A stretch of 64,000 bases of DNA from Kaistia hirudinis. GTDB taxonomy: Bacteria > Pseudomonadota > Alphaproteobacteria > Rhizobiales > Kaistiaceae. A program made the translations under genes and the position numbers. Shown one piece after another: positions 4,378 to 32,670 of this stretch (position 1 is its first letter; the number at the start of each line of letters is the position of its first letter). The notes beneath the pieces were generated by a model. That model saw nothing but the letters and a program-made list of their open reading frames with translations. It ran no database searches and was not told the DNA's origin. The stretch spans positions 806,001 through 870,000 of the forward strand of contig NZ_JACIDS010000002.1 in NCBI RefSeq assembly GCF_014196455.1, in the 5' to 3' direction.

Positions 4378-4379
4378 CC

Positions 4380-4841: not shown

Positions 4842-4971
4842 GCCCGCCAGGCGGGACATTACCAAGAATTCATATCGGTGACAGGCGACCGTAAGGTGCC
4901 GAACGGCATTGTGACGTCATGAGATGCAGCCCCCGCAAGGCTCTCATGATTGCAATTTCGTGGAGATACCG

Positions 4972-6492: not shown

Positions 6493-6558
6493 TCCCACCC
6501 CATCGGCCCCGCCGGCACCAGCAGCGCGCATTTTTCCGCTCTGGGTGCCGGATGCCCA

Positions 6559-6592
6559 GGCAGGCGGGTTCCTGAACCCGCCTGCCTTTTTC
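6559..6592 (+). terminator. Rho-independent terminator after degP
   Basis: There is a perfect 12-bp GC-rich stem (GGCAGGCGGGTT paired with AACCCGCCTGCC) around a CCTG loop, followed directly by a run of T. It lies about 70 bases past the degP stop and separates degP from the two-component system. Confidence 0.95.
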
Positions 6593-6658
6593 TTGCCTGC
6601 GTCTGCTCGCCGGCCGCGACCACTCTCCCTTTCGCCCCTAATCGGCTAACCTTGCGCC

Positions 6659-7339: not shown

Positions 7340-8717
7340 GGTCGTCCGCACGACGGCATTCAAGCTGACGGCGATCTATTTCGTCGTCTTCACCGTCTTC
7401 GCCGTGGCGTTTGTCGGCTGGATCTCGCGCGAGACCGACCGCATCCTCACCCAGCAGGTGAAGGACTCGATCGAGGCCGAGATCGGCGTGCTGGCCGATG
7501 AGGGTCTGAGCCGCGGTCTCACGGGCATCGTCGCGGCGATCGAGCAGCGCAGCCGCGTTCCGGGCGCGAGCCTCTATGTGATCGCGGATTCCGAAGGCCG
7601 CGTCGTCGCCGGCAATGTGACGGAGGTGCCGCCCGCCCTGCTGCAGCGCAGCGGGCTGGACCCGATCACCATCCCCTATAAGAGCCTCGACGACGAGAAC
7701 GGTCCGAAGACCGCGATGGTCCAGGTCCTGCCCCTGCCGAACGGCATGCGCATGCTGGTCGGTCGCGACATTTCCGACATCGAGCGCATCCGGTCTGTCG
7801 TGGCGAAGGCGCTGGTGCTGGGCCTCGGTCTGCTGATCGTCCTCGCCCTCGGCTCATGGTTCTTCGTCAGCCGTCGCGTCCTGAAGCGGATCGACTCGAT
7901 CGCCGGCACGAGCCGGCAGATCATGGCGGGCGACCTCTCCGGACGGCTTGAAGTCACGGGGACGGGCGACGAGTTCGACCGCCTCGCCGAGAGCCTCAAC
8001 GCGATGCTGAGCCGGATCGAGGATCTCCTGCACGGTCTCAAGGACGTTTCCGACAACATCGCGCATGATCTGAAGACGCCGCTGACGCGGCTGCGGACGC
8101 GCGTCGAGGCGACCCTTGCCGGACCGCAGGATCTCGGTGCTTATCGCACGGCGCTCGAATCGACGATCGAGGAATCCGACCAGCTCATCCGCACCTTCAA
8201 CGCGCTTCTCATGATCGCGCGGATCGAGGCCGGTTCGCCCGATGGCGCCATGGGACCGATCGACCTGGCGCGGATCGTCGCCGATGTGGCCGAGTTCTAC
8301 GAGCCGGTCGCCGAAGAGGCCGAGGTCTATCTGGCCCTGTCGCTGGAGGAGCCGCTTCCGATCGTCGGCAGCCGCGAACTGATCGCGCAGGCGCTCGGCA
8401 ATCTTATCGACAACGCGATCAAATATGTCCGCAGCGGCGATCGCCCGCCGGCTGCGCCGCGCGTCGCCGTTGCCGCGCGCCGCGACGGCGACGCGATCCT
8501 CGTCACGGTCGCGGATAATGGTCCCGGCATCGCCGCCGAGGATCGCGAGCGCGTGCTGAAGCGCTTTGTCCGGCTCGAGAAAAGCCGGACCATGCCGGGC
8601 AGCGGCCTCGGCCTCAGTCTCGTCGACGCCGTGACAAGGCTTCATCATGGTGCCATATCGCTTCAGGATGCGAATCCGGGGCTGGTCGTGAATCTGCGAT
8701 TCCCCGCTTCGTCCTAA
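7323..8717 (+). CDS. Membrane sensor histidine kinase, partner of the adjacent response regulator
   Basis: This is a transmembrane histidine kinase of 464 residues that starts at a GTG inside the end of the regulator gene. It has two membrane helices (about 13-33 and 160-182) bracketing a periplasmic sensor of about 125 residues, a HAMP domain (about 182-235), a HisKA domain with phospho-acceptor H248 (NIAHDLKTPLTRLR), and a HATPase domain with the N box (NLIDNAIKY), G1 (DNGPGI) and G2 (GSGLGLSLV). The layout matches the EnvZ/CusS class. The sensor domain has no recognisable ligand motif. Confidence 0.93.
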   Translation: MTALGKVVRTTAFKLTAIYFVVFTVFAVAFVGWISRETDRILTQQVKDSIEAEIGVLADEGLSRGLTGIVAAIEQRSRVPGASLYVIADSEGRVVAGNVTEVPPALLQRSGLDPITIPYKSLDDENGPKTAMVQVLPLPNGMRMLVGRDISDIERIRSVVAKALVLGLGLLIVLALGSWFFVSRRVLKRIDSIAGTSRQIMAGDLSGRLEVTGTGDEFDRLAESLNAMLSRIEDLLHGLKDVSDNIAHDLKTPLTRLRTRVEATLAGPQDLGAYRTALESTIEESDQLIRTFNALLMIARIEAGSPDGAMGPIDLARIVADVAEFYEPVAEEAEVYLALSLEEPLPIVGSRELIAQALGNLIDNAIKYVRSGDRPPAAPRVAVAARRDGDAILVTVADNGPGIAAEDRERVLKRFVRLEKSRTMPGSGLGLSLVDAVTRLHHGAISLQDANPGLVVNLRFPASS

Positions 8718-8731
8718 GCGAAAGGGAGGCG

Positions 8732-11722: not shown

Positions 11723-14090
11723 GCGCGGCGCCTGCCGAGGCGCCGGTCGGCCGCGTCTCCACATCGTGACGATCGAGCGGCAGGCGCACGGCGACGATCG
11801 TGCCCTTGCCCTCATGGCTGCGGATGCGCATCGCGCCGCCGTGCAATTGCGCCAGCGAGCCCGTGATCGCGAGGCCGAGGCCGGAGCCCTTATGGCTCTT
11901 GGTGAACTGGTTCTGCACCTGCTCGAACGGGCGGCCGAGCTTCTTCAGCGCCTCGCGCGGAATGCCGATGCCATTGTCCTCGATGGTGATCGTCACGGCG
12001 CCGCCGATCTTGCGGGCGCGGACATGGACGCGCCCGGCGCCCGGCGTGAACTTCACGGCATTCGACAAGAGGTTCAGCACCATCTGCTTCACGGCGCGCC
12101 GGTCCGCCGGCAGGTGCAGGTCCGGTTCGAGATCGATCTCGATCGACACGTGCCGCGCATCGGCCTCCGGCCCCATGACGCGGGCAGCCTCCTCGATGAT
12201 CTCGTTCAGTTCGAGCCGCTCCAGGTCGAGCGTCATGCGCCCGGCCTCGATCCGCGCCATGTCGAGAACGTCGTTGATGACGTTGAGCAGGAAGTTGCCG
12301 CTCTGGTGGATGTCCTGGCAGTATTCGCCATATTTCGGCGAGCCGAGCGGGCCGAACAGACCGGACTGCATGATCTCCGAGAAGCCGATGATCGCGTTGA
12401 GCGGCGTGCGCAGCTCATGGCTGATATTGGCCAGGAATTCGGACTTGGCGCGGTTCGCAGCCTCGGCGCGATCCTTCTCGTCCGAATATTTCTTCGCGAG
12501 CTCGTCGTTCTCACGCGCCTGCTGTTCGAGCTTCTGGCGGGAGAGGCGGAGGTCCGCGATCGTCGCCATCAGGCGGCGTTCGCCGTCGATCAGCTTTTCT
12601 TCGTGCCGCTTGATCGTCGTGATGTCGGTGCCGACCGAGACGAAGCCGCCGTCCTTGGTGCGCCGCTCGTTGATCTGCAGCCAGCGGCCGTCATTGAGCT
12701 GCGCCTCGAAGGACCGCGCACCGGCTTCGGGGCCGCCGTCGCCGGGAACCTGCGAGCGGACGATGGGCTGGCGCCCGGCCGCGATCACCTCGGCATAAGG
12801 CGCGCCAACGGCGAGGACCGCATCCGGAATGCCGTGCAACTGCTGGTACTTCGAATTGCACATGACCAGCCGGTTCTCCGAATCCCACAGCACGAAGGCT
12901 TCGGAGATCGTCTCGATCGCGTCGCGCAGGCGCAGATCCGCCGTGCGGGAATGCTCGGCAAGCCGCATCTGCTCGGTGACGTCGACGGCAATGCCGATGA
13001 GGTGAGGCTCGGGCGTCTCCGCATCGACCAGTTCGACGCGGATCCGCAGCCATACGAAACCACCACCGGCCTTGCGCATGCGGAACATGCGGTCGACCGT
13101 CGTCTCGTTCGATTCATAGAGCGTCTCGACGAGATCCATCAGGTCCCCGTCATCCGGATGGACGAGCGCATCGACCTCGCCGAAGCTCAGCAGCGTATCG
13201 CGCGGCGTCATGCCCACCAGCTCGAACATCGACTTCGACCAGAACAGCCGGCCGCGGGCGAGATCCCAATCCCAGAGCCCGCAACGGCCGCGACGCAGCG
13301 CCGTGTCGAAGCGATCATAGGTCTCGGCATAGATCCGGTCGGCCTGCTGAGCCCGCGCCGATTGCGCGAAATAGCCGTAGAGGATGACGAGGAGGATCGC
13401 TGTCGTCCCGACAAAGGCGGTGACGTTGACCGAGACTTCCGCGCGCCAGCCGCGATAGATGTCAGACAGCGGCGTGAGCACGGCCAGATAGCCGGCGCGT
13501 CCCGGAAGCAGGCGGGCGGCCGCCAGCGCCGGGGATCCGTCCTCCAGCGTCACGGTCATGGTGCCGGCGCGCTCACCGAAGATCACCAGCGGCTGCGCGC
13601 CATCGACCACGTCGTTGAAGTCGCGACCCTCGTCGGAAAGAACGCGCGGCGCGCTCGCGATGATGCGGCCGGTCGGGTCGGTGACGAAGAGGCGCCTCCC
13701 ACCGGCGAGGGCGCCGTCGGGCAGCGCATCGTCGAGGGCGTTCTGCAGCCCCATCGCGTAGCGGTCGTCGGGGAGGGCAGCCTCGGCGTCGGAAAGGGTG
13801 CGGGCGACCAGCGAGGCCAGCAGCCCCATGGTCTCGCGGGCCTGAAACTCCCGATCGAGCCGCGCATCATAGAGATGCGTGCCGCGCGAGACGGCGATCA
13901 CCACCAGGAAGAGGATGATGATGACGGGAATGCAACGCCTGAGGATCGGCTCGGCGGCAAGCAGTTTTTCATAAGCAGGCTGCGCGACGAGACGGGCATG
14001 GCCACGGATGCGATCTCTCCGGCGAGAGAAGATCCTGCCGATCGACAAACGTCCACTATCTGACGCACCGGCTGCTTGCGCCCGCGCCAT
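11688..14090 (-). CDS. pleC: PAS-domain sensor histidine kinase, PleC/DivJ-like
   Basis: This is a hybrid-free membrane kinase. From the ATG at 14090, which has an AGGGGG ribosome site, it is 800 residues; an in-frame ATG at 14147 would add 19 residues without a clear site. It has a membrane helix near residue 60, a periplasmic or extracytoplasmic domain, a second helix near 235, two PAS domains (about 270-520), a HisKA domain with H558 (ANISHELRTPLNAIIGFSE) and a HATPase with GIGIPREAL and GSGLGL. The extended HisKA helix (GLFGPLGSPKYGEYCQDIH) is typical of the PleC/DivJ kinases that set DivK phosphorylation. Placement beside glnE agrees, from memory, with the pleC locus of Sinorhizobium, so the symbol rests partly on synteny. 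Confidence 0.75.
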   Translation of the reverse strand: MARAQAAGASDSGRLSIGRIFSRRRDRIRGHARLVAQPAYEKLLAAEPILRRCIPVIIILFLVVIAVSRGTHLYDARLDREFQARETMGLLASLVARTLSDAEAALPDDRYAMGLQNALDDALPDGALAGGRRLFVTDPTGRIIASAPRVLSDEGRDFNDVVDGAQPLVIFGERAGTMTVTLEDGSPALAAARLLPGRAGYLAVLTPLSDIYRGWRAEVSVNVTAFVGTTAILLVILYGYFAQSARAQQADRIYAETYDRFDTALRRGRCGLWDWDLARGRLFWSKSMFELVGMTPRDTLLSFGEVDALVHPDDGDLMDLVETLYESNETTVDRMFRMRKAGGGFVWLRIRVELVDAETPEPHLIGIAVDVTEQMRLAEHSRTADLRLRDAIETISEAFVLWDSENRLVMCNSKYQQLHGIPDAVLAVGAPYAEVIAAGRQPIVRSQVPGDGGPEAGARSFEAQLNDGRWLQINERRTKDGGFVSVGTDITTIKRHEEKLIDGERRLMATIADLRLSRQKLEQQARENDELAKKYSDEKDRAEAANRAKSEFLANISHELRTPLNAIIGFSEIMQSGLFGPLGSPKYGEYCQDIHQSGNFLLNVINDVLDMARIEAGRMTLDLERLELNEIIEEAARVMGPEADARHVSIEIDLEPDLHLPADRRAVKQMVLNLLSNAVKFTPGAGRVHVRARKIGGAVTITIEDNGIGIPREALKKLGRPFEQVQNQFTKSHKGSGLGLAITGSLAQLHGGAMRIRSHEGKGTIVAVRLPLDRHDVETRPTGASAGAALRLGASAEPSR

Positions 14091-21162: not shown

Positions 21163-22089
21163 TCAGCGTGCGGATGCGGTGGCATTTTCGTCCGCTGTCC
21201 GGCCTTCGATGAGGTGGCGCGCCGCGCGGATACGCGGCACCATCTCGTCGATGAAGAGGCGAATATGCGCCGCGTTCCTGAGTGTCTCCGGATAGAGAAG
21301 CCAGAGCTCGCCGCGAAATTCGGCGACGTCCGGAAGGCAGCGCAACAGGCCATGCGCCGCTGCGGCGATGGCTGGCAAGGCCGAGATGCCGAGCCCGGAA
21401 CGCACGGCGGCCACGAGGTTCGGCACCGTGTTGCAGCGGATCGCCACCTCGGCGTCGGGCGCCGCCTCGGCCAGCCAGCGCAGCCCGCCGAGCCGCGCGA
21501 TGGCGCGATCTCCGAGCACCAGCCGATGCATGCCGAGATCCTTGATCCGCTCGGGCAGGCCGTGTCGCTCGGCATAGTCGGCGCCGCAATAGAGCCCCCA
21601 CACCGTGTCAGGCAGCCGGAGGCGGACAAGACCGTCTGCCTGCGGCGGCGCGCCGGCTCGTATTGCCACATCCGCTTCGCCGCGCATGAGGTCGAGAAGG
21701 CGATCATCCGCGATCAGTTCGATCGCGAGGCCCGGATGGGCGGCCTGGATGTCGCGAACGGCCGGCGCCACCACGAGCGCAAGCATCGTGTCCGTCGTCG
21801 TCAGGCGTACGGTGCCCGTGGCAGTGCGGCGCCAGGTTTCGGCGAGCGAGACGATTCCGGCGGCTTCCCGCTCGATCGCTTCGGCGCGGGCGATGAGCGC
21901 GCGGCCCTGTTCGGTCAGGCGATAGCCGTCGGCGCGGCGCTCGAAGAGTTGCGCGCCGAGCGCCGTCTCGAGCGCAGCGGTGCGGCGCGCGATGGTGGTC
22001 TGGTTGACGCCGAGCTGCCGTGCGGCGGCGAGCGTCGAGCCGCAACGGGCGACGGCGAGGAATGCGGAGAGATCGTTCCAGTCGAACAT
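21163..22089 (-). CDS. LysR-family transcriptional regulator
   Basis: This regulator of 308 residues (start ATG 22089, MFDWNDLSAF) has an N-terminal winged helix-turn-helix (about 3-62; GSTLAAARQLGVNQTTIARR) and a type 2 periplasmic-binding-like effector domain (about 88-290). The in-frame sequence upstream to 22260 has no homology-like character and runs through the presumed promoter region, so it is left out. It is transcribed away from the ABC-DhaKLM operon start 310 bases away, so it could be a divergent regulator of it, although the GTTTAGTGA boxes there are not the usual LysR T-N11-A form. Confidence 0.88.
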   Translation of the reverse strand: MFDWNDLSAFLAVARCGSTLAAARQLGVNQTTIARRTAALETALGAQLFERRADGYRLTEQGRALIARAEAIEREAAGIVSLAETWRRTATGTVRLTTTDTMLALVVAPAVRDIQAAHPGLAIELIADDRLLDLMRGEADVAIRAGAPPQADGLVRLRLPDTVWGLYCGADYAERHGLPERIKDLGMHRLVLGDRAIARLGGLRWLAEAAPDAEVAIRCNTVPNLVAAVRSGLGISALPAIAAAAHGLLRCLPDVAEFRGELWLLYPETLRNAAHIRLFIDEMVPRIRAARHLIEGRTADENATASAR

Positions 22090-22164
22090 GCGCCATTGTG
22101 CCGGAGCGCAGCGCGCCAGGGCAATTGGCCTTTGAGAGCCGTCGCGCCGATCCTCTTGCTGCAT

Positions 22165-22269
22165 GTTTAGTATTTTGCGCTGCAACCTGCCGCAATGCAG
22201 CATAAAATGGCGGAAAATTGGCGTTGCGTTGTTTAGTGAAATGGGTATCACTAAACACAATCACTAAAC
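22165..22269. promoter_or_regulatory. Cluster of GTTTAGTGA operator-like boxes before the ABC-dha operon
   Basis: GTTTAGTGA at 22231-22239 and TCACTAAAC at 22248-22256 form a perfect 9-bp inverted repeat with an 8-base spacer. A second TCACTAAAC follows at 22261-22269, 13 bases downstream of the first. A partial copy, GTTTAGT, is at 22165-22171. Repeated, oriented boxes like these are typical of a repressor site. They occupy the 310-base gap between the LysR gene and the binding-protein gene, in which I see no gene. The binding protein is unknown; a DeoR- or GntR-type factor encoded elsewhere, or the XRE-like gene of the operon, are candidates. Confidence 0.65.
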
Positions 22270-22399
22270 AGACGTCGGGATGAACCCGCGCAGAGGGAAC
22301 GTGAATTCACCGGCCCTGGATCGCTTGAGGAGGCGGTCCGATCGACCCCGCGGTCTTTCTGCGCGGGCTGCGTCGGCATGGGCCTCCGGGAGGGATCCG

Positions 22400-23734
22400 A
22401 TGAAGAAGCTACTGACGATTGCGTCCGCGATCGGCACGGCCGCCTTGCTGGCCGGCGCTGCGACCGGCGAGGCGCGGGCCGCTGACAAGCAGATCACGCT
22501 GTGCTGGGCCGCCTGGGATCCGGCCAATGCGCTGGTCGAACTCTCCAAGGACTTCACCAAGGAGACCGGCATCGGCATGAAGTTCGAGTTCGTGCCCTGG
22601 ACCAGCTATGCCGATCGCTTCCTGAACGAGCTCAATTCGCACGGCAAGCTCTGCGACCTGATCATCGGCGACAGCCAGTGGGTCGGCGGTTCGGCCGAGA
22701 ACGGTCACTACGTCAAGCTGAACGACTTCTTCGACAAGGAGAAGATCAGCATGGACGATTTCGTGAAGGCGACGGTCGTCGGCTATTCCGAATGGCCCAA
22801 GAACACGCCGAACTACTGGGCGCTCCCGGCCATGGCCGACGCCGTCGGCTGGACCTATCGCAAGGACTGGTTCGCGCGTCCCGAGCTGCAGAAGGAATTC
22901 AAGGAGAAATACGGCCGCGATCTCGCGCCGCCCAAGACCTATGACGAGCTGAAGCAGATTGCGGAGTTCTTCCAGGGCCGCGATATCGACGGCAAGAAGG
23001 TCTATGGCGCCTATATCTTCACCGAGCGCGGCTCGGAAGGCATCACCATGGGCGTGACGAACGTCCTCTACGATTACGGCTTCCAGTACGACGATCCGGC
23101 GAAGCCCTATCACATGGAAGGCTTCGTCAATTCGCCCGAAGCCGTGAAGGGGCTGGAGTTCTACAAGGAGCTCTACACGTGCTGCACGGCGCCGGGCATG
23201 ACCAATGCCTACATGTCCGAGGGTCTCGACGCCTTCAAGTCGGGCCAGGTGGCGATGCAGATGAACTGGTTCGCCTTCTTCCCGGGCCTCTACAAGGATC
23301 CGAATGTCGGCGGCGACAAGATCGGTTTCTTCCCGAACCCGGCCGGTCCTGACGGCCATTTCACGCAGCTCGGCGGGCAGGGCATCTCGGTCGTCGCCTA
23401 TTCCGACAACCAGCCCGAGGCGCTCGAATACATCAAGTGGTTCGCGCAGCCGGCGGTCCAGCAGAAATGGTGGGAGCTCGGCGGCTATTCGGCGATGAAG
23501 TCCGTCGTCGAGGCGCCCGGCTTCGCGGCCAGCGCACCCTTCGCGCCCGACTTCCTCGCCTCGATGAACATGGTCAAGGACTTCTGGGCCGAGCCTTCCT
23601 ATGCCCAGCTGATGCAGGCGATGCAGAAGCGCGTCTCGGACTATGTCGTCGCCGACCAGGGCACGGCCAAGGAGGCGCTCGACGGCCTGGTCAAGGACTG
23701 GACGACGGTCTTCGAGGACGAAGGCAAGATGTAG
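22400..23734 (+). CDS. ABC transporter substrate-binding protein (CUT1, glycerol/polyol type)
   Basis: This is a periplasmic solute-binding protein of 444 residues with a cleavable signal peptide (MKKLLTIASAIGTAALLAG, cleavage near ARA-AD at about 28). The rest is a MalE/UgpB-type two-lobed binding fold containing many aromatic residues (CWAAWDPANAL, FVPWTSYADRF and QMNWFAFFPGLY) that usually stack on polyols or sugars. ATG 22400 is chosen for its GGAGGGATCCG ribosome site; the reading frame is open further upstream. It heads the operon whose small membrane subunit is otherwise found in glycerol importers. The ligand is inferred to be a C3 or polyol compound from the dha genes. Confidence 0.9.
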   Translation: MKKLLTIASAIGTAALLAGAATGEARAADKQITLCWAAWDPANALVELSKDFTKETGIGMKFEFVPWTSYADRFLNELNSHGKLCDLIIGDSQWVGGSAENGHYVKLNDFFDKEKISMDDFVKATVVGYSEWPKNTPNYWALPAMADAVGWTYRKDWFARPELQKEFKEKYGRDLAPPKTYDELKQIAEFFQGRDIDGKKVYGAYIFTERGSEGITMGVTNVLYDYGFQYDDPAKPYHMEGFVNSPEAVKGLEFYKELYTCCTAPGMTNAYMSEGLDAFKSGQVAMQMNWFAFFPGLYKDPNVGGDKIGFFPNPAGPDGHFTQLGGQGISVVAYSDNQPEALEYIKWFAQPAVQQKWWELGGYSAMKSVVEAPGFAASAPFAPDFLASMNMVKDFWAEPSYAQLMQAMQKRVSDYVVADQGTAKEALDGLVKDWTTVFEDEGKM

Positions 23735-23752
23735 CCGGCCGACCCGCAAGAT

Positions 23753-23784
23753 GGCGGCTCCGGGAGCAAGCTCCCGGCGCCGCC
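23753..23784 (+). other. Intercistronic hairpin between binding-protein and permease genes
   Basis: A 13-bp GC-rich stem with one mismatch (GGCGGC-t-CCGGGAG paired with CTCCCGG-c-GCCGCC) closes a CAAG loop, without a T run. Such hairpins after binding-protein genes commonly protect the upstream mRNA and reduce read-through, giving more binding protein than permease. Confidence 0.7.
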
Positions 23785-23839
23785 TCCGAGCGAAACCGGA
23801 GACCGGCGGCATTCCCGTGCGCCGCGATCCCGACAGATC

Positions 23840-24820
23840 ATGCCGGACCGAGCTTTCATGACCGAGACCACGACATCATCGGCGCTTCCGGAGAAGCTTG
23901 CGGGCGCCACGCCCGAAGTGATCGCCCGGCCGATCCGGGGGCTCTCCGACAAGGCGATCGCCTGGTTCTTCATCGGGCCGACGATCCTGCTGCTGCTGGC
24001 GATCAACATCTTCCCGCTGATCTGGACGATCTGGCTCTCGTTCACGAATTACCGCGCCAACAGGCCGAATGCCGAAGTGAAGATGGTGGGGCTCGACTGG
24101 TACCACCGCATCCTGGGCGACGGGGATGTCTGGCTCGCCATGCAGACGACGGCGCACTTCGTCGTCTGGACCATCATCATCGAGACGGTCCTCGGCTTCG
24201 GCCTCGCCTGGCTGATCGACAAGAAGTTCCGCGGCCATGGCCTGTGGACCACGGTCATCCTGATCCCGATGATGCTGTCGCCGGCCGTCGTCGGGAATTT
24301 CTGGACGTTTCTCTATCAGCCGCAGAGCGGGCTGTTCAATTACGTGGTCGGCTTCCTGACCGGCATCGACCCGTCCTCGTTCCAGATGCTGGGCAGCGTG
24401 CGCCTGTCGCCCTGGGCGATCGTGATCGTCGATGCCTGGATGTGGACGCCCTATGTGATGCTGATCTGCCTGGCGGGGCTCCGATCCATCCCCGACTACA
24501 TCTATGAGGCGGCCGAGGTCGACCGCGCCTCGCCCTGGCGCCAGTTCTGGTCGATCACGCTGCCGATGGCGCTGCCCTTCATCATGCTGGCCGTGCTGTT
24601 CCGCGGCATCGAGAACTTCAAGATGTTCGACATGGTCAACCTGCTGACGGGCGGCGGCCCCGGCTCGACCACCGAGGTCGTGTCGATCACGCTGAAGCGG
24701 CAGGCTTTCGAGAGCTGGCGCACCGGCTATTCCTCGGCGCTCGCCATCATCCTGTTCGTGACCGTCTTCGGCCTCGCCAACATCTATGTGAAGGCGCTCA
24801 ACCGGGTGAAGCAGAGATGA
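23840..24820 (+). CDS. ABC transporter permease, MalF/UgpA type
   Basis: This is one half of the transmembrane channel of the importer. The 326-residue protein has an N-terminal cytoplasmic segment, then six predicted helices starting at AWFFIGPTILLLLAINIFPL. The ATPase-contact EAA loop is IYEAAEVDRASPWRQFWSI followed by TLP. ATG 23840 is used; a second in-frame ATG at 23858 (MTETTTSS) is equally possible. Its stop overlaps the start of the second permease (ATGA), which argues for one-to-one production of the two. Confidence 0.92.
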   Translation: MPDRAFMTETTTSSALPEKLAGATPEVIARPIRGLSDKAIAWFFIGPTILLLLAINIFPLIWTIWLSFTNYRANRPNAEVKMVGLDWYHRILGDGDVWLAMQTTAHFVVWTIIIETVLGFGLAWLIDKKFRGHGLWTTVILIPMMLSPAVVGNFWTFLYQPQSGLFNYVVGFLTGIDPSSFQMLGSVRLSPWAIVIVDAWMWTPYVMLICLAGLRSIPDYIYEAAEVDRASPWRQFWSITLPMALPFIMLAVLFRGIENFKMFDMVNLLTGGGPGSTTEVVSITLKRQAFESWRTGYSSALAIILFVTVFGLANIYVKALNRVKQR

Positions 24821-25770
24821 GCGGACTGTCCCAGGCCCATTCCGTCGTCGCGCCCTCGACCGCGACGCGGCGCATCGCCGGCGCCATCGTCATCGTCTAC
24901 GCGCTGGTCACGCTGATTCCGCTCCTGTGGATCATCGCCACCAGCTTCAAGACGCCGCCGGATTCGATCGCCTATCCGCCGAAGATCGTCTTCACGCCCT
25001 CGCTCGAGGGCTATGTGAACCTCTTCACGACGCGGACGCGCCAGTCGCCGGAAATGCTGGCGCAGCTTCCCCCGCCCACGACCTGGTATGACAAGCTGGT
25101 GCGCTCGCGGAACATGGTCATCGCCGGGCCGTCCAACGTGATCCCGCGCTTCGTCAACTCGATCATCATCGCCTTCGGCTCGACGTTCCTGGCGGTATTT
25201 CTCGGAACGCTCGCCGCCTATGGCTTCTCGCGCTTCCGCGTGCCGCTCAAGGACGATTTGCTGTTCTTCATCCTGTCGACGCGCATGATGCCGCCGATCG
25301 CGGTCGCGATCCCGATCTACCTCATGTATCGCGAGATCGGCCTCACCGACACCAAGCTCGGCATGATCCTGCTCTATACGGCGGTGAACGTGTCGCTTGC
25401 CGTCTGGCTGCTCAAGGGCTTCATCGACGAGATCCCGCGCGAATATGAGGAAGCGGCGATGATCGACGGCTATACGCGGCTGCAGGCCTTCCGCAAGGCG
25501 GTGCTGCCGCAGGCGGCGACGGGCATCGCGGCGACGGCGATCTTCTGCCTGATCTTCGCCTGGAACGAATATGCCTTCGCGGTGCTGCTCACTTCGGGCA
25601 ATGCGCAGACCATGCCGCCCTTCATTCCCTTCATCATCGGCGAGGGAGGGCAGGACTGGCCGGCGGTCGCCGCCGCGACGACTTTGTTCGTCATCCCGAT
25701 CCTCGTTTTCACCATCCTGCTCAGGAAGCACCTCCTGCGCGGCATCACCTTCGGAGCGGTGCGCAAATGA
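24817..25770 (+). CDS. ABC transporter permease, MalG/UgpE type
   Basis: This second channel subunit has 317 residues, with a first helix at VIVYALVTLIPLLWIIATSF and five more predicted helices, and an EAA loop (EYEEAAMIDGYTRLQAF). An unusually long periplasmic stretch between helices 1 and 2 (about residues 45-105) contains LFTTRTRQSPEMLAQLPPP, a feature of the glycerol/polyol branch rather than of maltose permeases. It overlaps the upstream permease by ATGA and the downstream 70-residue protein in the same way. Confidence 0.92.
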   Translation: MSGLSQAHSVVAPSTATRRIAGAIVIVYALVTLIPLLWIIATSFKTPPDSIAYPPKIVFTPSLEGYVNLFTTRTRQSPEMLAQLPPPTTWYDKLVRSRNMVIAGPSNVIPRFVNSIIIAFGSTFLAVFLGTLAAYGFSRFRVPLKDDLLFFILSTRMMPPIAVAIPIYLMYREIGLTDTKLGMILLYTAVNVSLAVWLLKGFIDEIPREYEEAAMIDGYTRLQAFRKAVLPQAATGIAATAIFCLIFAWNEYAFAVLLTSGNAQTMPPFIPFIIGEGGQDWPAVAAATTLFVIPILVFTILLRKHLLRGITFGAVRK

Positions 25771-25979
25771 GCGACCAGACCGCGGCGCCACGCGCCTCGC
25801 TGCTCTCCCGCTTCCTGCGCCTCCGCCGCGGGCCCTGGGAGAATCTCGCCACCATCCTGATCGGGCTCGGCGTCGTCATGCTGATGCAACCCTTCTCGGC
25901 GACGGCTTACGCCTACTCCTTCATCACGATCCTGGCGGGCACGGCGATGTTCGCAATCGTCAGCCATTTCCCGGAGTAG
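25767..25979 (+). CDS. Small DUF2160-like membrane protein of the ABC importer
   Basis: This 70-residue protein has two predicted membrane helices (about 25-43 and 48-66; ATILIGLGVVMLMQPF and YSFITILAGTAMFAIVSHF) and a basic cytoplasmic N-terminus (LLSRFLRLRRG). Small two-helix proteins of this kind accompany the GlpSTPQV-type glycerol importers of rhizobia. The ATG overlaps the stop of the second permease, and the first ATPase gene follows 4 bases later. The role is unknown: it may be an accessory channel subunit or stabiliser. Confidence 0.8.
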   Translation: MSDQTAAPRASLLSRFLRLRRGPWENLATILIGLGVVMLMQPFSATAYAYSFITILAGTAMFAIVSHFPE

Positions 25980-25983
25980 AGAA

Positions 25984-27081
25984 ATGGCGGAAATCCGGGT
26001 CGAAAACGTCCAGAAGAGCTTCGGCGCCTTCACCGCGGTGAAGGGGTCGACCTTCACGATCGAGAATGGCGAGTTCTTCGTCATGCTGGGGCCTTCGGGC
26101 TGCGGCAAGACGACGACGCTCAGGATGATCGCCGGGCTCGAACTGCCGACCGCGGGCAAGATCCTGCTTGGCGGCGAGGACGTCACCTTCAACCGCGCCG
26201 CAGCGCGCGACATCGCCTTCGTGTTCCAGCTCTTCGCGCTCTATCCGCATATGAATGTGCGGCAGAACATCGGTTTCCCGCTGAAGTGCCAGGGCATGGC
26301 GAGCAAGGAGATCCGGCAAGCGGTTGAAGAAGCAGCGAAATTGCTGCGCATCGATCATCTGCTCGACCGCTCGGTCACGGGGCTGGCCGGCGGCGATCGC
26401 CAGCGCGTGGCGCTCGGTCGTTGCATCGTGCGTCGGCCCAAGGCCTTCCTGATGGACGAGCCGCTCGGCACGCTCGACACCGAGTTCCGCGACCTGATGG
26501 TCAGGGAGCTGCGCGAGTTGCACAACCGGATCGGCGCGACGACGGTCTATGTCACCCACGACCAGCTCGAGGCGATGGCGATGGCCGACAAGATTGCCGT
26601 GATGAATCATGGTGTTATCGAGCAGTTCGGCCGCCCGCAGGAAATCTATGACCGCCCGGCGACCATGTTCGTGGCCGATTTCCTCGGATCGCCGCCGATG
26701 AACTTCCTCGCCTTTCGCGGCGCGGTGGCGCCGGGCCAGCGCTCGGTCCGGATCGGCGAGGCGGAGCTTGCCGTGCCGGAGCTGCGCGAGGGGCAAAGCG
26801 AGGGCGAACTGGCGCTCGGGGTGCGGCCGGAGCACATCCGCCTCGACGATGCCTCGCCGTTTCGGGGCGCGGTGTTCGGCGCCGAATATCTCGGCACGAC
26901 GCAGATCGTCACGCTCGACACCGCTTATGGCCAGGTGAAGGCGCGCCTTCCGGCGGATCGGAACGTGAAGGCCGGCGAGACGGTCGGTCTCGCCTTCCGC
27001 TCGGAGCGGCTGTCGCTGTTCGACAAGACATCGGGGAGGGCGCTGCGGTCTGCGTTGCATGGGGAGGCCGGTCATGGCTGA
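25984..27081 (+). CDS. ABC transporter ATP-binding protein, unusual signature motif (first of two)
   Basis: This CUT1-type ATPase of 365 residues has Walker A GPSGCGKTT (36-44), Q-loop Q82, Walker B FLMDEP (155-160) and switch histidine H192 (YVTHDQ), followed by a C-terminal MalK-like regulatory OB domain (about 240-365). The ABC signature reads LAGGDRQRV (134-142) rather than the usual LSGGQQQRV, with S and Q both replaced. The signature completes the ATP site formed with the other ATPase, so one of the two composite sites may be weak. It overlaps the next ATPase gene by 8 bases. Confidence 0.93.
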   Translation: MAEIRVENVQKSFGAFTAVKGSTFTIENGEFFVMLGPSGCGKTTTLRMIAGLELPTAGKILLGGEDVTFNRAAARDIAFVFQLFALYPHMNVRQNIGFPLKCQGMASKEIRQAVEEAAKLLRIDHLLDRSVTGLAGGDRQRVALGRCIVRRPKAFLMDEPLGTLDTEFRDLMVRELRELHNRIGATTVYVTHDQLEAMAMADKIAVMNHGVIEQFGRPQEIYDRPATMFVADFLGSPPMNFLAFRGAVAPGQRSVRIGEAELAVPELREGQSEGELALGVRPEHIRLDDASPFRGAVFGAEYLGTTQIVTLDTAYGQVKARLPADRNVKAGETVGLAFRSERLSLFDKTSGRALRSALHGEAGHG

Positions 27082-28099
27082 CGTCACCATCGAGGGCGTG
27101 ACGAAGCGCTTCGGCCAGACGACGGCCGTCGCCAATCTTCGCCTGGACATCGCCAATGGCGAATTCATCGTGCTGCTCGGGCCGACCGGCGCCGGCAAGA
27201 CGACGACGCTGCGCCTCGTCGCCGGTCTGGAGGCGCCGGATGCCGGCCGCGTCACCATCGCCGGCCGCGACGTGACGGCACTCGCGCCGGCCGCCCGCGA
27301 CGTCACCTTCGTCTTCCAGCAATATTCGCTCTACCCGCATCTCTCGGTCTACGACAACCTCGCCTTCCCGCTGCGCTCGCCGCAGCGGCGCGTCGCCGAA
27401 CCGGAGATTCGGCGGCGCGTGCAGGAGGTGGCGGGGCTGTTGCGGATCGCCCACAAGCTCGACAACCGCGCGACGAAGCTTTCCGGCGGCGAGATGCAGC
27501 GCGTCGCCATCGGGCGGGCGCTGGTGCGGCGGCCGACCATCTACCTGATGGACGAGCCGCTTTCCTCGCTCGATGCCAAGCTGCGCTCGGACCTGCGGCT
27601 TGAACTGAAGCGCATCCAGCAGGATCTCGGTGCGACCGTGCTCTATGTGACGCACGACCAGATCGAGGCGATGACGCTGGCGAGCCGGATCGGCGTCATG
27701 GACCGGGGTGAACTGGTCCAGATCGGCACGCCGCGCGAGATCTATGAGCGGCCCGCCAACACCTATGTCGCGGCGCGGCTCGGCCAGCCGGCGATCAACC
27801 TGTTTCCCGAGGGGCTTGTCCCGGCGGGCGGGGCGCCGGCCGGCGCGAAGACCATCGGCGCGCGCACCGAGCATTTCCGCATAGAGAAGGCGAAGCCCTC
27901 GGCGGCCAATGCGAGCGTCGAGTGGATCGAGCATCTCGGCGACCAGAACCATCTCCATGTGCGGATCGGCGAGAGGAAACTGACGACACTGGTCGATCCG
28001 GAAAGCGATCTTGCCGCGGGCGACGCGGTTGCGCTCTCCCTGGTCGATCCGCTCTATTTCGACGCGGCGGGGAATCGGATCGAGGGGCGGGCGGCATGA
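27074..28099 (+). CDS. ABC transporter ATP-binding protein, canonical signature (second of two)
   Basis: This is the second CUT1-type ATPase, 341 residues from ATG 27074, which has GGGGAGG upstream. It carries Walker A GPTGAGKTT (36-44), Q-loop FVFQQYSLYP, signature LSGGEMQRV (136-144), Walker B YLMDEPLSSLD and switch histidine YVTHDQIEAM, then a C-terminal OB regulatory domain. With the upstream ATPase it would form a heterodimer, as in GlpS-GlpT of rhizobial glycerol importers. Its stop overlaps the dhaL start (ATGA), which physically links transport and phosphorylation. Confidence 0.94.
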   Translation: MADVTIEGVTKRFGQTTAVANLRLDIANGEFIVLLGPTGAGKTTTLRLVAGLEAPDAGRVTIAGRDVTALAPAARDVTFVFQQYSLYPHLSVYDNLAFPLRSPQRRVAEPEIRRRVQEVAGLLRIAHKLDNRATKLSGGEMQRVAIGRALVRRPTIYLMDEPLSSLDAKLRSDLRLELKRIQQDLGATVLYVTHDQIEAMTLASRIGVMDRGELVQIGTPREIYERPANTYVAARLGQPAINLFPEGLVPAGGAPAGAKTIGARTEHFRIEKAKPSAANASVEWIEHLGDQNHLHVRIGERKLTTLVDPESDLAAGDAVALSLVDPLYFDAAGNRIEGRAA

Positions 28100-28701
28100 T
28101 CGACGAAGCGAAGAAGCGCGCACTGATCGAGGCGATGGCGGCCGCCATGATCGGCCATGCCGAGGAGCTGACCGCGCTCGACCAGGCCATCGGCGATGGC
28201 GACCACGGCCTCAACATGAAGCGCGGCTTCGAGGCCGTGCTCGCCGACAACGACGTGATCGCCGCCAAGCCGCTGCCCGATGCGCTGAAGGCGATCGGCA
28301 CCACGCTGGTCATGAAGGTCGGCGGTGCCTCGGGACCGCTCTATGGCACGCTGGCGCTGGCGCTCGCCAAGGAGCTGCCCGCCGATCCGTCCCGCGACGA
28401 TCTCGCCCGTGCGCTGCGCGGTGCTATCGCGGCGGTCAAGGCGCGCGGCAAGTCGGAGAGCGGGCAGAAGACCATGCTCGACGTGCTGGAGCCGGTGGCG
28501 GCAGCGCTCGAGAGCGGTGCCGATCCGGTCGCGGCGGCGAACGGCGCCGCCGAGGCGACCATTCCGCTGAAGGCGATCCGCGGCCGCGCTGCCTTTCTCG
28601 GCGATCGGTCGATCGGTCACATGGACCCCGGCGCGCGGTCGAGTGCACTGCTCGTCGCCGCGATCGCCGGCGTTCTGGGGGGAATATCGGATGGCGGCTA
28701 G
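28096..28701 (+). CDS. dhaL: Dihydroxyacetone kinase ADP-binding subunit DhaL
   Basis: DhaL carries a tightly bound ADP that is rephosphorylated by DhaM and then donates phosphate to dihydroxyacetone held on DhaK. The 201-residue helical-barrel protein has the metal/ADP aspartates D29, D34 and D36 (LDQAIGDGDHGLNM), the GGASGPLYG loop (residues about 75-83) and the C-terminal MDPGARS motif, all as in E. coli DhaL (210 residues). The open frame extends upstream, but ATG 28096 overlaps the ATPase stop and fits the family start. It lies 9 bases ahead of dhaM. Confidence 0.95.
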   Translation: MIDEAKKRALIEAMAAAMIGHAEELTALDQAIGDGDHGLNMKRGFEAVLADNDVIAAKPLPDALKAIGTTLVMKVGGASGPLYGTLALALAKELPADPSRDDLARALRGAIAAVKARGKSESGQKTMLDVLEPVAAALESGADPVAAANGAAEATIPLKAIRGRAAFLGDRSIGHMDPGARSSALLVAAIAGVLGGISDGG

Positions 28702-28710
28702 GACGGCGGA

Positions 28711-29115
28711 ATGAGCACTCAGGCAAACGGCAATGTCGGCATCGTCATCGTCTCCCATTCGCCCGATGTGGCGAAGGGGACGGCCGAGATGGTGCGCCAG
28801 ATGGTCGGCGAGGAAGTGCCGCTCGCCTTTTGCGGCGGCAATCCGGATGGCGGGCTCGGCACCAGCGTCGAGGCGATCCTCGCCGCCATCGACCGCGCCT
28901 GGTCGGAGGCCGGCGTCGCGATCCTCGTCGATCTCGGCGGCGCGGAGACGAACAGCGAGATGGCGATCGAGATGCAGCCGGAGGCGCGGGCAGGGCGCAT
29001 CGTGGTCTGCAATGCGCCGATCGTGGAGGGCGCCGTGATTGCGGCGACCGAGGCTTCGGGCGGCGCCTCCCTCGAAGCGGTGCGCCGCACGGCGGAAGAA
29101 CTGTCGCCCGCGTGA
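28711..29115 (+). CDS. dhaM: PTS-dependent dihydroxyacetone kinase phosphotransferase subunit DhaM (EIIA domain only)
   Basis: This 134-residue protein is a single EIIA-mannose-type domain with the phosphorylatable histidine H16 (IVIVSHSPDVAKG). It would pass phosphate from HPr to the ADP on DhaL. The E. coli DhaM is a long fusion of EIIA, HPr and an EI fragment. Here the three parts are separate adjacent genes, with HPr 27 bases downstream and Enzyme I after that. Other conserved segments are ILVDLGGAETNSEMAIEM and VVCNAPIVEGA. Confidence 0.93.
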   Translation: MSTQANGNVGIVIVSHSPDVAKGTAEMVRQMVGEEVPLAFCGGNPDGGLGTSVEAILAAIDRAWSEAGVAILVDLGGAETNSEMAIEMQPEARAGRIVVCNAPIVEGAVIAATEASGGASLEAVRRTAEELSPA

Positions 29116-29142
29116 CGCGCGGCCGCGGCGAAAGGAAAGAGC

Positions 29143-29463
29143 ATGGCTGAGCCAGGATCATCAAACGGCGCATCGGCGGGCAGCGTGCTTCTCACGCATG
29201 CCGTCGGCCTGCACGCCCGCCCGTCCGTGAAGCTCACCAAGCTCGCGAAGACCTTCGGCGCTTCGATCGAGCTCGGCACCGGTCCGGAGGGCCCATGGAT
29301 CGATGCGAAGAGCATCGTCAAGGTGATGGCCGCCAAGGCGCCGCAGGGGACGACGCTGCATTTCAGGGCCGTGGGGCCCGATGCCGGCGAGGCCGTCGCC
29401 GCGCTGGTCGATCTGGTCGAGCGCGATTTCGACGAGGCCGCAGCCCATGCCGGGAATGGTTGA
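29143..29463 (+). CDS. HPr-family phosphocarrier protein of the dha system
   Basis: This 106-residue phosphocarrier has the active-site histidine H24 in GLHARPSVKL and a serine (S57) in DAKSIVKVMA at the position of the HPr regulatory serine. The N-terminus is about 8-10 residues longer than typical HPr. Being between dhaM and an Enzyme I gene, it most likely works as the dedicated carrier from Enzyme I to DhaM rather than in a general sugar PTS. Its last codons overlap the Enzyme I gene. Confidence 0.93.
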   Translation: MAEPGSSNGASAGSVLLTHAVGLHARPSVKLTKLAKTFGASIELGTGPEGPWIDAKSIVKVMAAKAPQGTTLHFRAVGPDAGEAVAALVDLVERDFDEAAAHAGNG

Positions 29464-31054
29464 GCGTTTCGGCCGCGCCGCCGCGCCCGGCCTTGCCTTC
29501 GGTCCTGTCCACCGGATCGCCGACCGCACCGTGCTGGTGCGCCGCGCCGGCAGCCCGGACGAGGAGCGCGCGGCGCTGGAAGCCGCCATTGCGACCGCGT
29601 CGGAGGATATCGCCGCGCTGATGGCGGCGGCGGATGATGACGGCGCCGCGATGCTGGAATTCCAGCTCGCCTTGCTGGAAGACGACGCCCTGCGCGCCCC
29701 GGCGCTTGATGCAATCGCGGGCGGCACCGACGCGGCAAGCGCCTGGCGCGATGCGCTGAACGCCCAGATCGAGGATTACCGCGCCTCGGACGACGCCTAT
29801 TTCGCGGCGCGCGCCAGCGATCTCCAGGATCTGAGCGATCGGGTTCTCGGTCATCTCGCCGGCGGCGGCGCCGAGGCCGCGCCGGCCCCGGGCACGATCC
29901 TTCTCGGCCGCGACCTGACGCCGAGCCGCTTCCTGGCGCTCGACTGGTCGAAGGGCGGCGCGATCGCGCTTTCGGAAGGCAGCCCGTCGAGCCATGTCGC
30001 CATGCTGGCGCGCTCGCGCAGCGTTCCGATGGTGGTCGGCCTGTCGGACATCCCGGATGCAGCGTTTTCCGAGGCGATCGTCGATGGCGAGAGCGGCCGC
30101 CTGGTGCTCGATCCCTTGCCCGAGCAGCGCGCGGCGCTCGCGGCCTTGCAGTCCGACGCCGCGTTGCGCGTCGGCGCCGAGGCGGCGGTCCTCCGCGAGC
30201 CGGCCCACATCGCCTCCGGCGAACGCGTCGCCGTGCTGATCAATGTGGCGAAGCCCGACGAGCTCGCCGCGATCGATCCGGCGATCTGCGACGGCATCGG
30301 CCTGGTGCGGACGGAGTTTCTTTTCTCCAGTCCGGCCGGGCTGCCGGATGAGGAGACGCAGTATCGGGCCTATCGCACGATCCTCGAATGGGCCGGCGAC
30401 AAGCCGGTGACCATCCGTACGGTCGATGCTGGCGGCGACAAGCCCGTTGCCGGTCTCACCATCGACGGCGAATCCAATCCGTTCCTCGGCACGCGCGGCG
30501 TGCGCCTGTCGCTGGAGCGGCCGGCGATCTTCCGCCTTCAGCTGCGCGCGCTGGCGCGTGCGGCTGAGCACGGCAATCTCAAGATCATGCTGCCGATGGT
30601 CACGGTGCCATCCGAGATCGACCGTGCGGCGGCGCTGCTCGGCGCGGCGATCGAGGAACTGGAGGCCGAGGGCATTCCCTGCCGCCGGCCGCCGCTCGGC
30701 ATCATGGTTGAGGTGCCCGCCGTCGCGGTGGTGCCGGAGCTCTTCGGCGCCGCGGCCTTCTTCTCGATCGGCTCGAACGACCTGACGCAATATACGACGG
30801 CCGCGGCGCGCGACATTGCCGCCGTGGCCGAACTCGGCGATGCCGGCCATCCCGCGGTGATCGCGCTGATCCGCAATGTCGTCGAGGGCGCGGCGAAGCT
30901 CGGCATCGATGTGAGCCTCTGCGGCGACATGGGCGGCGATCCGCAACTGCTGCCTGCGCTGATGTCGGCGGGCCTGCGCGCCGTCTCGGTCGCGCCGCCG
31001 TTGGTCGGCCGCGTCAAGCTGGCGCTCGCCCGCATCAGCGGGGAGGGGGCATGA
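29447..31054 (+). CDS. PTS Enzyme I (phosphoenolpyruvate-protein phosphotransferase) of the dha system
   Basis: This is the first enzyme of the relay, transferring phosphate from PEP to HPr. At 535 residues it is a little shorter than E. coli EI (575). The phospho-histidine is H183 (GSPSSHVAML), the PEP-binding barrel contains VRTEFLF, FLGTRGVRLSLERP and FFSIGSNDLTQYT, and the acid-base cysteine is C492 (VSLCGDMGGDP). These positions match E. coli H189 and C502. ATG 29447 overlaps the HPr gene by 17 bases; an ATG at 29456 is an alternative. The stop overlaps the start of the next gene (ATGA). It appears to be a complete, active enzyme. Confidence 0.93.
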   Translation: MPGMVERFGRAAAPGLAFGPVHRIADRTVLVRRAGSPDEERAALEAAIATASEDIAALMAAADDDGAAMLEFQLALLEDDALRAPALDAIAGGTDAASAWRDALNAQIEDYRASDDAYFAARASDLQDLSDRVLGHLAGGGAEAAPAPGTILLGRDLTPSRFLALDWSKGGAIALSEGSPSSHVAMLARSRSVPMVVGLSDIPDAAFSEAIVDGESGRLVLDPLPEQRAALAALQSDAALRVGAEAAVLREPAHIASGERVAVLINVAKPDELAAIDPAICDGIGLVRTEFLFSSPAGLPDEETQYRAYRTILEWAGDKPVTIRTVDAGGDKPVAGLTIDGESNPFLGTRGVRLSLERPAIFRLQLRALARAAEHGNLKIMLPMVTVPSEIDRAAALLGAAIEELEAEGIPCRRPPLGIMVEVPAVAVVPELFGAAAFFSIGSNDLTQYTTAAARDIAAVAELGDAGHPAVIALIRNVVEGAAKLGIDVSLCGDMGGDPQLLPALMSAGLRAVSVAPPLVGRVKLALARISGEGA

Positions 31055-31461
31055 CGGCCGCCCCCGACGCCGCCGCCGATCCGGTGGCCGCCTACAAGGC
31101 CGTTTTGCAGCGCGTTCTGGACAATCGCCCGTCCGGGACTCGCGGCCGCCTGGCGCAGGCGCTCGGCAAGAACCGCTCCTTCGTCAGCCATATGACCAGC
31201 CCCGCCTACGCGACGCCCATTCCGGCGCAGCACATCGAGACGATCTTCGAGATCTGCCATTTCTCGCCCGAAGACCGCCGGCATTTCCTCGACGCCTATG
31301 GCGAAGCCCATCCCCGCCGCGTGCCGGCACTGAAGGAAAGCCGCCGCATGCGCCCGCATGTCATCTATCTTCCCGATCTCGGGGATCCCGAGCGGAATCA
31401 GGAAATGGATCGGCTCGTCGGAGAATTCGTGCAGCGGCTGACGAAGCTGGTGGAGGGATAG
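31051..31461 (+). CDS. XRE/Cro-like helix-turn-helix protein coupled to the dha operon
   Basis: This 136-residue protein begins within the Enzyme I stop codon (ATGA), so it belongs to the operon. Residues about 28-75 look like a lambda-repressor-type helix-turn-helix (RGRLAQALGKNRSFVSHMTS then IPAQHIETIFEICHF), and a charged C-terminal part contains MRPHVIYLPDLGDPERNQEM and a terminal helix. I do not recognise a named family. It is most simply a dedicated regulator of the operon, possibly sensing phosphorylation or substrate, but it could be a structural partner of the kinase. No cysteine cluster or membrane segment is present. Confidence 0.7.
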   Translation: MTAAPDAAADPVAAYKAVLQRVLDNRPSGTRGRLAQALGKNRSFVSHMTSPAYATPIPAQHIETIFEICHFSPEDRRHFLDAYGEAHPRRVPALKESRRMRPHVIYLPDLGDPERNQEMDRLVGEFVQRLTKLVEG

Positions 31462-31507
31462 CGAGCCGGCCGCGACGGGGGGCGGACTTGCGGGAGCAAC
31501 TGAAGCG

Positions 31508-31603
31508 CCGTCATCCCGGCGAAAGCCGGGATCCATACAGCCTGAGGCGCCTCATCGTCCTGCGCTTCGGCTGAATGGATCCCGGGTCGAGCCCGGGATG
31601 ACG
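31508..31603. repeat. Nested palindromic intergenic repeat between the HTH gene and dhaK
   Basis: The element starts with GTCATCCCGGCGAAAGCCGG and ends with the complementary GAGCCCGGGATGAC. Each arm can also fold on itself (CCCGGCgaaaGCCGGG, and CCCGGGtcgaGCCCGGG). This is the form of the dispersed palindromic repeats common in alphaproteobacterial genomes. A shorter relative is at 53361-53388. It occupies most of the 225-base gap before dhaK. Confidence 0.85.
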
Positions 31604-31686
31604 GCGAGAATGAACAGGCGCCTCGCGTCGTCCTGCGCCGGAGGGGCGACACGGGACGGCCGCGCCAGGATCGAAGGGGAGGAACC

Positions 31687-32670
31687 ATGAAGAAGCTGAT
31701 CAATTCGCCCGAGACCGTGCTCGCCGAAAGCCTCGACGGCTTTGCCGCGGCGCATGCCGACATTCTCGTGCTCGGCGAGGAGCGGAAATTCGTCCGCCGC
31801 AAGACGCTGAAGCCGGGCAAGGCGGCGCTGATCTCGGGCGGCGGTTCCGGCCATGAGCCGCTGCATGCCGGCTTCGTCGGCTTCGGCATGCTCGATGCCG
31901 CCTGTCCCGGCCAGGTCTTCACCTCGCCGACGCCGGACCAGATGATCGCGGCGCTGGCCGAGGTCGATACCGGCGGCGGCGCGCTCTTCATCGTCAAGAA
32001 CTATGAAGGCGATCGCATGAACTTCGACATGGCGGCGGAACTCGCCGGCAGCGAGGTGCTGACCGTGATCACCGACGACGATGTCGCGGTCGAGACCTCG
32101 ACCTATTCGATCGGCCGCCGCGGCGTCGCCGGCACGATGATCGTCGAGAAGGTGGTCGGCGCCGCGGCCGAGGCCGGCATGCCGCTCGCCGATCTGAAGG
32201 TGCTGGGCGACCGGGTCAATGCGCGCACGCGCTCCATGGGCGTCGCGCTGTCCAGTTGCACGGTTCCCGCCGCCGGCACGCCGACCTTCACGCTCGGCGA
32301 GAACGAGATGGAAATGGGCGTCGGCATTCATGGCGAGCCCGGCCGGCGCCGCGTGGCGCTCGAGCCCGCGGGCCAGATCGCCGAGGAGATGATCGCGGCG
32401 ATCGCGGGCGATCTCGGCGCGCGCGGCGACGCGCTGTTGCTGGTCAACGGCTTCGGCGGCACGCCGCTGATGGAACTCTACCTCATGTTCAACGCCGCCA
32501 AGGCCGAGGCGGAGAAGCACGGCTACCGCGTCGCCCGCGCGCTGGTCGGCAACTATGTGACGTCGCTCGAAATGGCTGGCTGCTCGCTGACGCTGTCGCT
32601 GCTCGACGACGAGACGGCTGGATTCTGGGACGCGCCGGTCCACACGGCGGGGCTGCGCTGGGGGATGTAG
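31687..32670 (+). CDS. dhaK: Dihydroxyacetone kinase substrate-binding subunit DhaK
   Basis: DhaK binds dihydroxyacetone covalently through a histidine hemiaminal and accepts phosphate from DhaL-ATP to give dihydroxyacetone phosphate. The 327-residue protein has the binding histidine H215 in VGIHGEPG (H218 in E. coli), the loop [17 protein letters not shown] (about residues 49-65), [14 protein letters not shown] and [13 protein letters not shown]. It is close to full length. It is the last gene of the cluster, separated from the rest by 225 bases with a palindromic repeat, so it may be transcribed separately or by read-through. A GGGGAGGAA ribosome site precedes the ATG. Confidence 0.95.

Follow-up and report, generated by a model that had tools for sequence, protein, structure and literature searches.

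Gene content of the cluster

The window examined here is a stretch of 64,000 nucleotides from the 5.26 Mb genome of Kaistia hirudinis (assembly GCF_014196455.1, contig NZ_JACIDS010000002.1, positions 806,001 to 870,000), and all positions are counted from its first letter. Between 22400 and 32670 it carries 12 genes on the + strand, none with internal stops, which encode an ATP-binding cassette (ABC) importer, a dihydroxyacetone (DHA) kinase of the DhaKLM type, the phosphotransferase system (PTS) proteins HPr and Enzyme I (EI) and a small helix-turn-helix (HTH) protein. In our judgement this cluster is probably a self-contained operon for the uptake and phosphorylation of DHA, possibly also of glyceraldehyde, under control of the HTH protein. 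Its features are as follows.

22165..22172, +: outlying half-site GTTTAGTA
22231..22269, no strand: predicted operator, GTTTAGT-N12-ACTAAAC-N6-ACTAAAC; sole exact inverted repeat of its form in the genome
22400..23734, +: substrate-binding protein (SBP), CUT1 type; SBP_bac_1 above the Pfam cut-off
23840..24820, +: ABC permease 1, MalF/UgpA-like by best model matches
24817..25770, +: ABC permease 2, MalG/UgpE-like by best model matches
25767..25979, +: membrane protein of 70 amino acids (aa)
25984..27081, +: ABC ATPase 1, UgpC/MalK-like by best model matches
27059..28099, +: ABC ATPase 2, UgpC/MalK-like by best model matches
28096..28701, +: DhaL, nucleotide-binding subunit; NCBIfam TIGR02365 above cut-off
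28711..29115, +: DhaM, EIIA-Man domain only; NCBIfam TIGR02364 above cut-off
29143..29463, +: HPr; HPr family above the NCBIfam cut-off
29447..31054 (alternative start 29456), +: EI, above the NCBIfam cut-off
31051..31461, +: small HTH protein, predicted regulator of the operon
31687..32670, +: DhaK, DHA-binding subunit; NCBIfam TIGR02363 above cut-off

The families confirm the preliminary description of this DNA, which had read a six-gene importer followed by DhaL, DhaM, HPr, EI, an HTH gene and DhaK, and the ATGA overlap at 28096 that joins the two halves is present as described. The successive junctions between permease 1 and the HTH gene measure -4, -4, +4, -23, -4, +9, +27, -17 and -4 bp; wider gaps separate the SBP gene from permease 1 (105 bp) and the HTH gene from dhaK (225 bp). 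The composition of a CUT1 importer is complete, with an SBP_bac_1 protein, two MalF/MalG-like permeases and MalK/UgpC-like ATPases, although the Mal and Ugp models that match permeases and ATPases best do so below their NCBIfam equivalog cut-offs. The 70-aa membrane protein matched no Pfam or NCBIfam family above cut-off and was found in every orthologous importer that could be read through to the first ATPase. The gap before dhaK contains an imperfect palindrome, CGTCATCCCGGC...CCCGGGATGACG, at 31509-31603, and is shorter in two related loci (L040 and L041; here and below, L numbers are our handles for loci and G numbers those for genomes).

The phosphate relay

All catalytic residues named in the preliminary description are in place. 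Alignment with solved homologues recovers the substrate-binding histidine of DhaK (H215, against solved DhaK chains), the three aspartates of the nucleotide site of DhaL (D29/D34/D36), the phosphorylatable histidine of the EIIA-Man domain of DhaM (H16) and both H183 and C492 of EI, numbered from the start at 29447; H24 of HPr is visible in the translation.

Families and residues thus support a complete PEP-driven relay that shares one operon with an ATP-driven importer. The Dak1 domain occurs in a single protein of the whole genome. Three proteins contain PEP-utilizers_C, namely the EI of the cluster and two others in frames of 843 and 908 aa, which, judged by frame length, would be EI-Ntr-like and PPDK-like, respectively. 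There are two HPr and two EIIA-Man proteins, and the second EIIA-Man adjoins the second HPr. PTS_EIIC, the permease family searched for, gave no match in the genome, which leaves the relay without a competing sugar PTS permease of this family. Because so few other proteins of these families are present and PTS_EIIC is missing, the relay looks dedicated to the cluster, as had been proposed, and it would serve DHA alone.

Relation to known systems

In E. coli, DhaM relies on the general PTS. DhaK and DhaL of that system are homologous to those of the window and share their catalytic residues. The model of the E. coli-type DhaM (NF008478) describes one long protein, parts of which match DhaM, HPr and EI of the window separately; the window thus differs from E. 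coli DhaKLM in having HPr and a full EI as proteins of their own.

The gene set as such is already in print. According to the portions available of a study of Bradyrhizobium diazoefficiens (PMC5017801, 2016), blr3566-blr3577 match the 12 genes of the window in function and in order: SBP, two permeases, a small protein, two ATPases, DhaL, EIIA-Man, HPr, EI, a hypothetical protein and DhaK. In gene content we see no difference from the window in what those portions give. The genes are induced in a blr7984 mutant, with eleven values spanning 5.1- to 24.3-fold, and in bacteroids they are jointly lowered; the authors named DhaK, DhaL and the PTS proteins, and the same portions give no importer substrate, no role for blr3576, the counterpart of the HTH gene, and no operator (PMC5017801). 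Separate EI and HPr genes that share an operon with DHA kinase genes had been reported from Mesorhizobium loti and B. japonicum (PMC2405797, 2008). These clusters resemble that of the window; in the available text of that paper the term ABC transporter is absent and the origin of the operons is left unsettled by its authors. In the light of what is available of both papers, the statement in the preliminary description that known DhaKLM systems either take their PTS proteins from the general system or carry them fused to DhaM is too narrow. The additions made here are a proposal for the substrate of the importer and a pair of regulator and operator.

Among the matches listed from the open-access literature, no bacterial DHA importer is described. 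For DHA transport those matches include one metabolic model that names dihydroxyacetone transport, and the others mostly concern docosahexaenoic acid, drug antiporters or dehydroascorbate. Papers that connect DHA kinase with erythrulose or apiose were searched for and not found, nor was one on DhaM with HPr in alphaproteobacteria.

Substrate of the importer

The neighbourhood of the importer was compared in two overlapping sets of loci. The order survey covers 397 genomes of the order of the host, drawn evenly from a larger group; the SBP had a match at E<=1e-100 in 100 of them, with at most 4 candidates scored per genome so that misses are possible. Identities split into orthologues (64-89%) and paralogues (47% or less). 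Downstream genes were read at 90 orthologous loci, and the 7 with an importer that reaches a contig end were counted neither with nor without a kinase, which leaves 83 uncut loci. The named set consists of the 80 best named loci, treated in the same way (4 cut, 76 uncut). Outside the 90, despite SBP matches, stand the window itself, G024, with importer and relay on two contigs, and G279, whose SBP is cut (72% identity over 256 residues). Locus L046 (G003) is absent from the 397 genomes and was left out of the final 90-locus tally.

A DHA kinase lies directly behind the orthologous importer in every uncut locus, 83 in the order survey and 76 in the named set, which agrees with DHA as the likely substrate suggested in the preliminary description. 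In the order survey this kinase is the PEP relay with the HTH gene in 36 loci, the same with an additional fused DAK in 15, the relay with DAK and without the HTH gene in 1, DAK alone in 30, and DAK with a DhaL-DhaK pair in 1. G208, counted with the DAK-only loci, is really interrupted by a contig end; a different contig holds its relay and HTH gene. In the named set the relay follows the importer in 33 loci, relay and DAK in 28 (one with its K subunit cut), DhaL-DhaK alone in 14 and DAK alone in 1, itself cut. The fused, ATP-dependent DAK needs no PEP relay, and it sits behind the same importer as the relay does. All 14 loci with DhaL-DhaK alone belong to Paraburkholderia, Caballeronia or Burkholderia; DhaM was not found in any of the 5 genomes of this Burkholderiaceae group that were searched, the completeness of which is unstated. 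Loci of these three genera (among L099-L117) combine the same importer with DhaL-DhaK only and have a LacI regulator upstream.

The importer is thus constant while the type of kinase is exchanged, always within the DHA kinases. Further enzymes were not found to recur widely with it: within 4.5 kb downstream no enzyme family is widespread, the commonest family of open reading frames (ORFs) being present at 5 of 125 loci, and within 6 kb upstream of the 80 named loci, some of which offer little sequence, none is widespread either. The commonest upstream genes encode LacI regulators (15 loci, all Burkholderiaceae) and assorted ABC ATPases (10). A constant importer, exchanged kinases and the lack of any other widely recurrent enzyme in the flanks read point to DHA or glyceraldehyde as substrate, and a product in need of no further dedicated enzyme fits dihydroxyacetone phosphate (DHAP) or glyceraldehyde phosphate. 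The exchange of kinases is an indirect guide, and by it DHA or glyceraldehyde is the likely substrate.

The importer might instead carry another hydroxyketone or ketose, such as erythrulose or apulose, which DhaK or DAK would phosphorylate in place of DHA. Kinases of the DAK family for other ketoses are known, CUT1 binding proteins with the fold of this SBP usually take larger sugars, and at L264 (see below) a distantly homologous importer accompanied by DhaK and DhaL adjoins a gene that by eye looks aldolase-like. A longer ketose phosphate would, however, require an isomerase, epimerase, aldolase or dehydrogenase, none of which is widely recurrent in the flanks read beside the orthologous clusters, and DhaK and DhaL pass the curated cut-offs for DHA kinases. 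We therefore consider this alternative unlikely, and DHA or glyceraldehyde the better candidates. Two other clues were dropped. The fold of the SBP was set aside on account of a model of fair quality and mostly oligosaccharide-binding neighbours, and beside a paralogous importer of the K. hirudinis genome (contig C4, SBP identity 44-46%) neither the small protein nor a DHA kinase was detected.

The relay also occurs without this importer. In 14 genomes (G002, G076, G086, G093, G122, G145, G158, G173, G203, G219, G228, G283, G299 and G322) no CUT1 importer stands in front of it in the stretch read, and in G014 and G020, both of one genus, the ABC importer in front of relay and HTH gene is a different one, Liv-like by eye (loci L051 and L050; in L050 this arrangement spans about 4100-13200). 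The relays of G167 and G363, cut beside the end of an ATPase gene, were excluded from this count. On a large plasmid of Microvirga ossetica (L007, 8416-12990) an IS5 transposase precedes the relay genes, with no importer match in the stretch; this is apparently a disrupted copy.

The HTH protein and its predicted operator

The exact pattern GTTTAGT-N10-13-ACTAAAC occurs once in the genome of K. hirudinis, before the importer. It is present in 33 of the 397 genomes, once in each. Of these sites 28 precede an SBP orthologue by 119-295 bp, and 3 (G002, G093 and G299) immediately precede dhaL of a relay that has no importer; the remaining 2 (G100 and G146) lie elsewhere. Mononucleotide shuffles of the upstream regions yielded close to zero such sites. 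A hidden Markov model (HMM) of the HTH protein was positive in 75 genomes, with up to 10 candidates scored per genome and misses possible. The exact operator is present in 31 of these 75 genomes, as against 2 of the 322 without the HTH gene (Fisher 3.5e-23, which is not a strict probability since the genomes are related).

In the order survey, with up to 2 mismatches allowed, 44 of the 51 loci that have the HTH gene carry the operator; of the 32 that do not, 1 carries it, the contig-cut G208. In both sets together the corresponding numbers are 106 of 113 for HTH loci, 0 of 15 for loci with DhaL-DhaK only and 2 of 31 for DAK-only loci, and those two apparently come from one cut contig; L129 appears to be the same contig as G208, both being of length 92507. 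An exact half-site is present at 112 of the 113 HTH loci. Seven families hold loci of both kinds; in six the full site marks the HTH loci, and in the seventh (f17) these are marked by half-sites only. Genus g69 alone shows the contrast, the site being perfect at six HTH loci and missing from two DAK-only loci. Where the importer is absent, the site (at up to 2 mismatches) stands just before dhaL in 10 of 16 relays. Taken together, the operator goes with whichever operon carries the HTH gene and not with the importer. DAK-only loci lack both HTH gene and operator, apart from the cut G208, which is counted among them.

Since the site follows the HTH gene rather than the importer, we read the HTH protein as its cognate, autoregulating regulator. 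On the distribution of gene and site it is very probably the regulator of the operon; that it acts as an autoregulated repressor rather than as an activator is our guess. The helix-turn-helix label given earlier finds no counterpart in the curated families: the protein matched no Pfam or NCBIfam family, and single relatives reach HTH_31, HTH_19 or YdaS no better than at E 0.08-0.2. The predicted model is helical (pLDDT 82) and begins with what looks like a Cro/CI-like helical bundle. The first Foldseek matches are a phage-186 regulator, C-proteins of restriction-modification systems, ClgR and the lambda repressor, none at E<=0.001, and an XRE-like chain came up in a profile search with an E of 0.052. 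In the annotations consulted, the protein is called hypothetical.

The operator could also be read by a different regulator, for instance the product of the divergent LysR-type gene of the window (21163), the HTH protein having some other role such as that of a partner of the relay. The position of this LysR-type gene and the want of a match of the HTH protein to a curated regulator family are in keeping with this. Within families, and down to the level of single genera, the operator nevertheless tracks the HTH gene, it tracks the relay where the importer is absent, and no family of upstream regulators recurs across the named HTH loci, the LacI gene being confined to loci without the HTH gene. 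This renders a different regulator improbable, and we retain the HTH protein as the candidate. Beyond that, it might found an undescribed family of regulators tied to PEP-driven, not ATP-driven, DHA kinases, which would sense the state of the dedicated relay instead of the free sugar, for example through contact with the phospho-form of HPr, DhaM or DhaL, and so couple expression of the importer to the load of the relay through the operator. We put this forward as a tentative and rather doubtful extension; it predicts that loci with the same importer but only an ATP-dependent kinase lack HTH gene and operator, as is the case.

Proposed function

In the proposed mechanism the triose would be captured outside the cell by the SBP and imported unphosphorylated by the two permeases and two ATPases at the expense of ATP. 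DhaK would hold DHA inside the cell, and phosphate would pass from PEP to EI (His183), HPr (His24), DhaM (His16), the ADP of DhaL and finally DHA, so that the product, DHAP, could enter glycolysis directly. The small HTH protein would bind GTTTAGT-N10-13-ACTAAAC before the first gene and control the operon. Gene content, residues, conserved order, the exchange of kinases and the co-occurrence of HTH gene and operator can be read from the sequences; the ligand, the direction of regulation and the flow of phosphate are proposed, the last by analogy with the known enzymes of E. coli and L. lactis. The comparison shows importer, kinase type and regulator to be exchangeable modules. The published cluster gains a candidate ABC importer for DHA, and a genome without PTS_EIIC seems to reserve an entire PEP relay for a single three-carbon sugar.

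Several observations weigh against this interpretation. A reversed control pattern matches about 38 of the 397 genomes, so the number of operator sites is not above background and it is their position that is telling. A scan for sigma-70 promoters in 22080-22420 gave no match, and the repressor reading therefore draws on the logic of autoregulation only. The operator at up to 2 mismatches is missing from 7 of the 51 HTH loci, each with an exact half-site, and from 6 of the 16 importer-less relays (G014, G020, G086, G122, G203 and G283), and a half-site is kept in two loci without the HTH gene (G105 and G139). Three relatives of the HTH protein (G250:C44, G391:C19 and G120:C34) have no relay in the stretch read, and the family may thus have other targets. 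The solved proteins nearest to the SBP are mostly oligosaccharide binders, so that the fold gives no hint of a triose, and its predicted model is only fair (mean pLDDT 69.7).

The preliminary description had also suggested that a glycerol or polyol dehydrogenase elsewhere could feed DHA to the kinase. Such a dehydrogenase is not a recurrent neighbour in the flanks read, dehydrogenases in the rest of the genome lying outside the search, and feeding of this kind is therefore not called for by the evidence. That the importer brings in glycerol, which a dehydrogenase elsewhere would convert to DHA for the relay, is very improbable: some rhizobial glycerol importers are of the same broad ABC class and have a small membrane protein (none of them in the literature listed), but rhizobial glycerol ABC uptake operons carry glycerol kinase and glycerol-3-phosphate dehydrogenase, both absent from the 12 genes, the 15 FGGY_N matches of the genome all fall outside the window, and an ORF that by eye resembles iron-alcohol dehydrogenase follows only 4 of 125 loci.

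Neighbouring genes and distant relatives

Upstream of the operon, between 17165 and 22260, the window carries genes for a LacI regulator and for xylose-isomerase-like, Gfo/Idh and SnoaL-like proteins besides the divergent LysR gene. A distant homologue of the importer (SBP identity 31-32%) is present at L264 (G027:C1, 8372-15615) and L268 (G015:C4), together with a small membrane protein, DhaK and DhaL; at L264 it adjoins DeoR-like and, as mentioned, aldolase-like genes, both assigned by appearance. The importer of these two loci is probably part of another ketose system.

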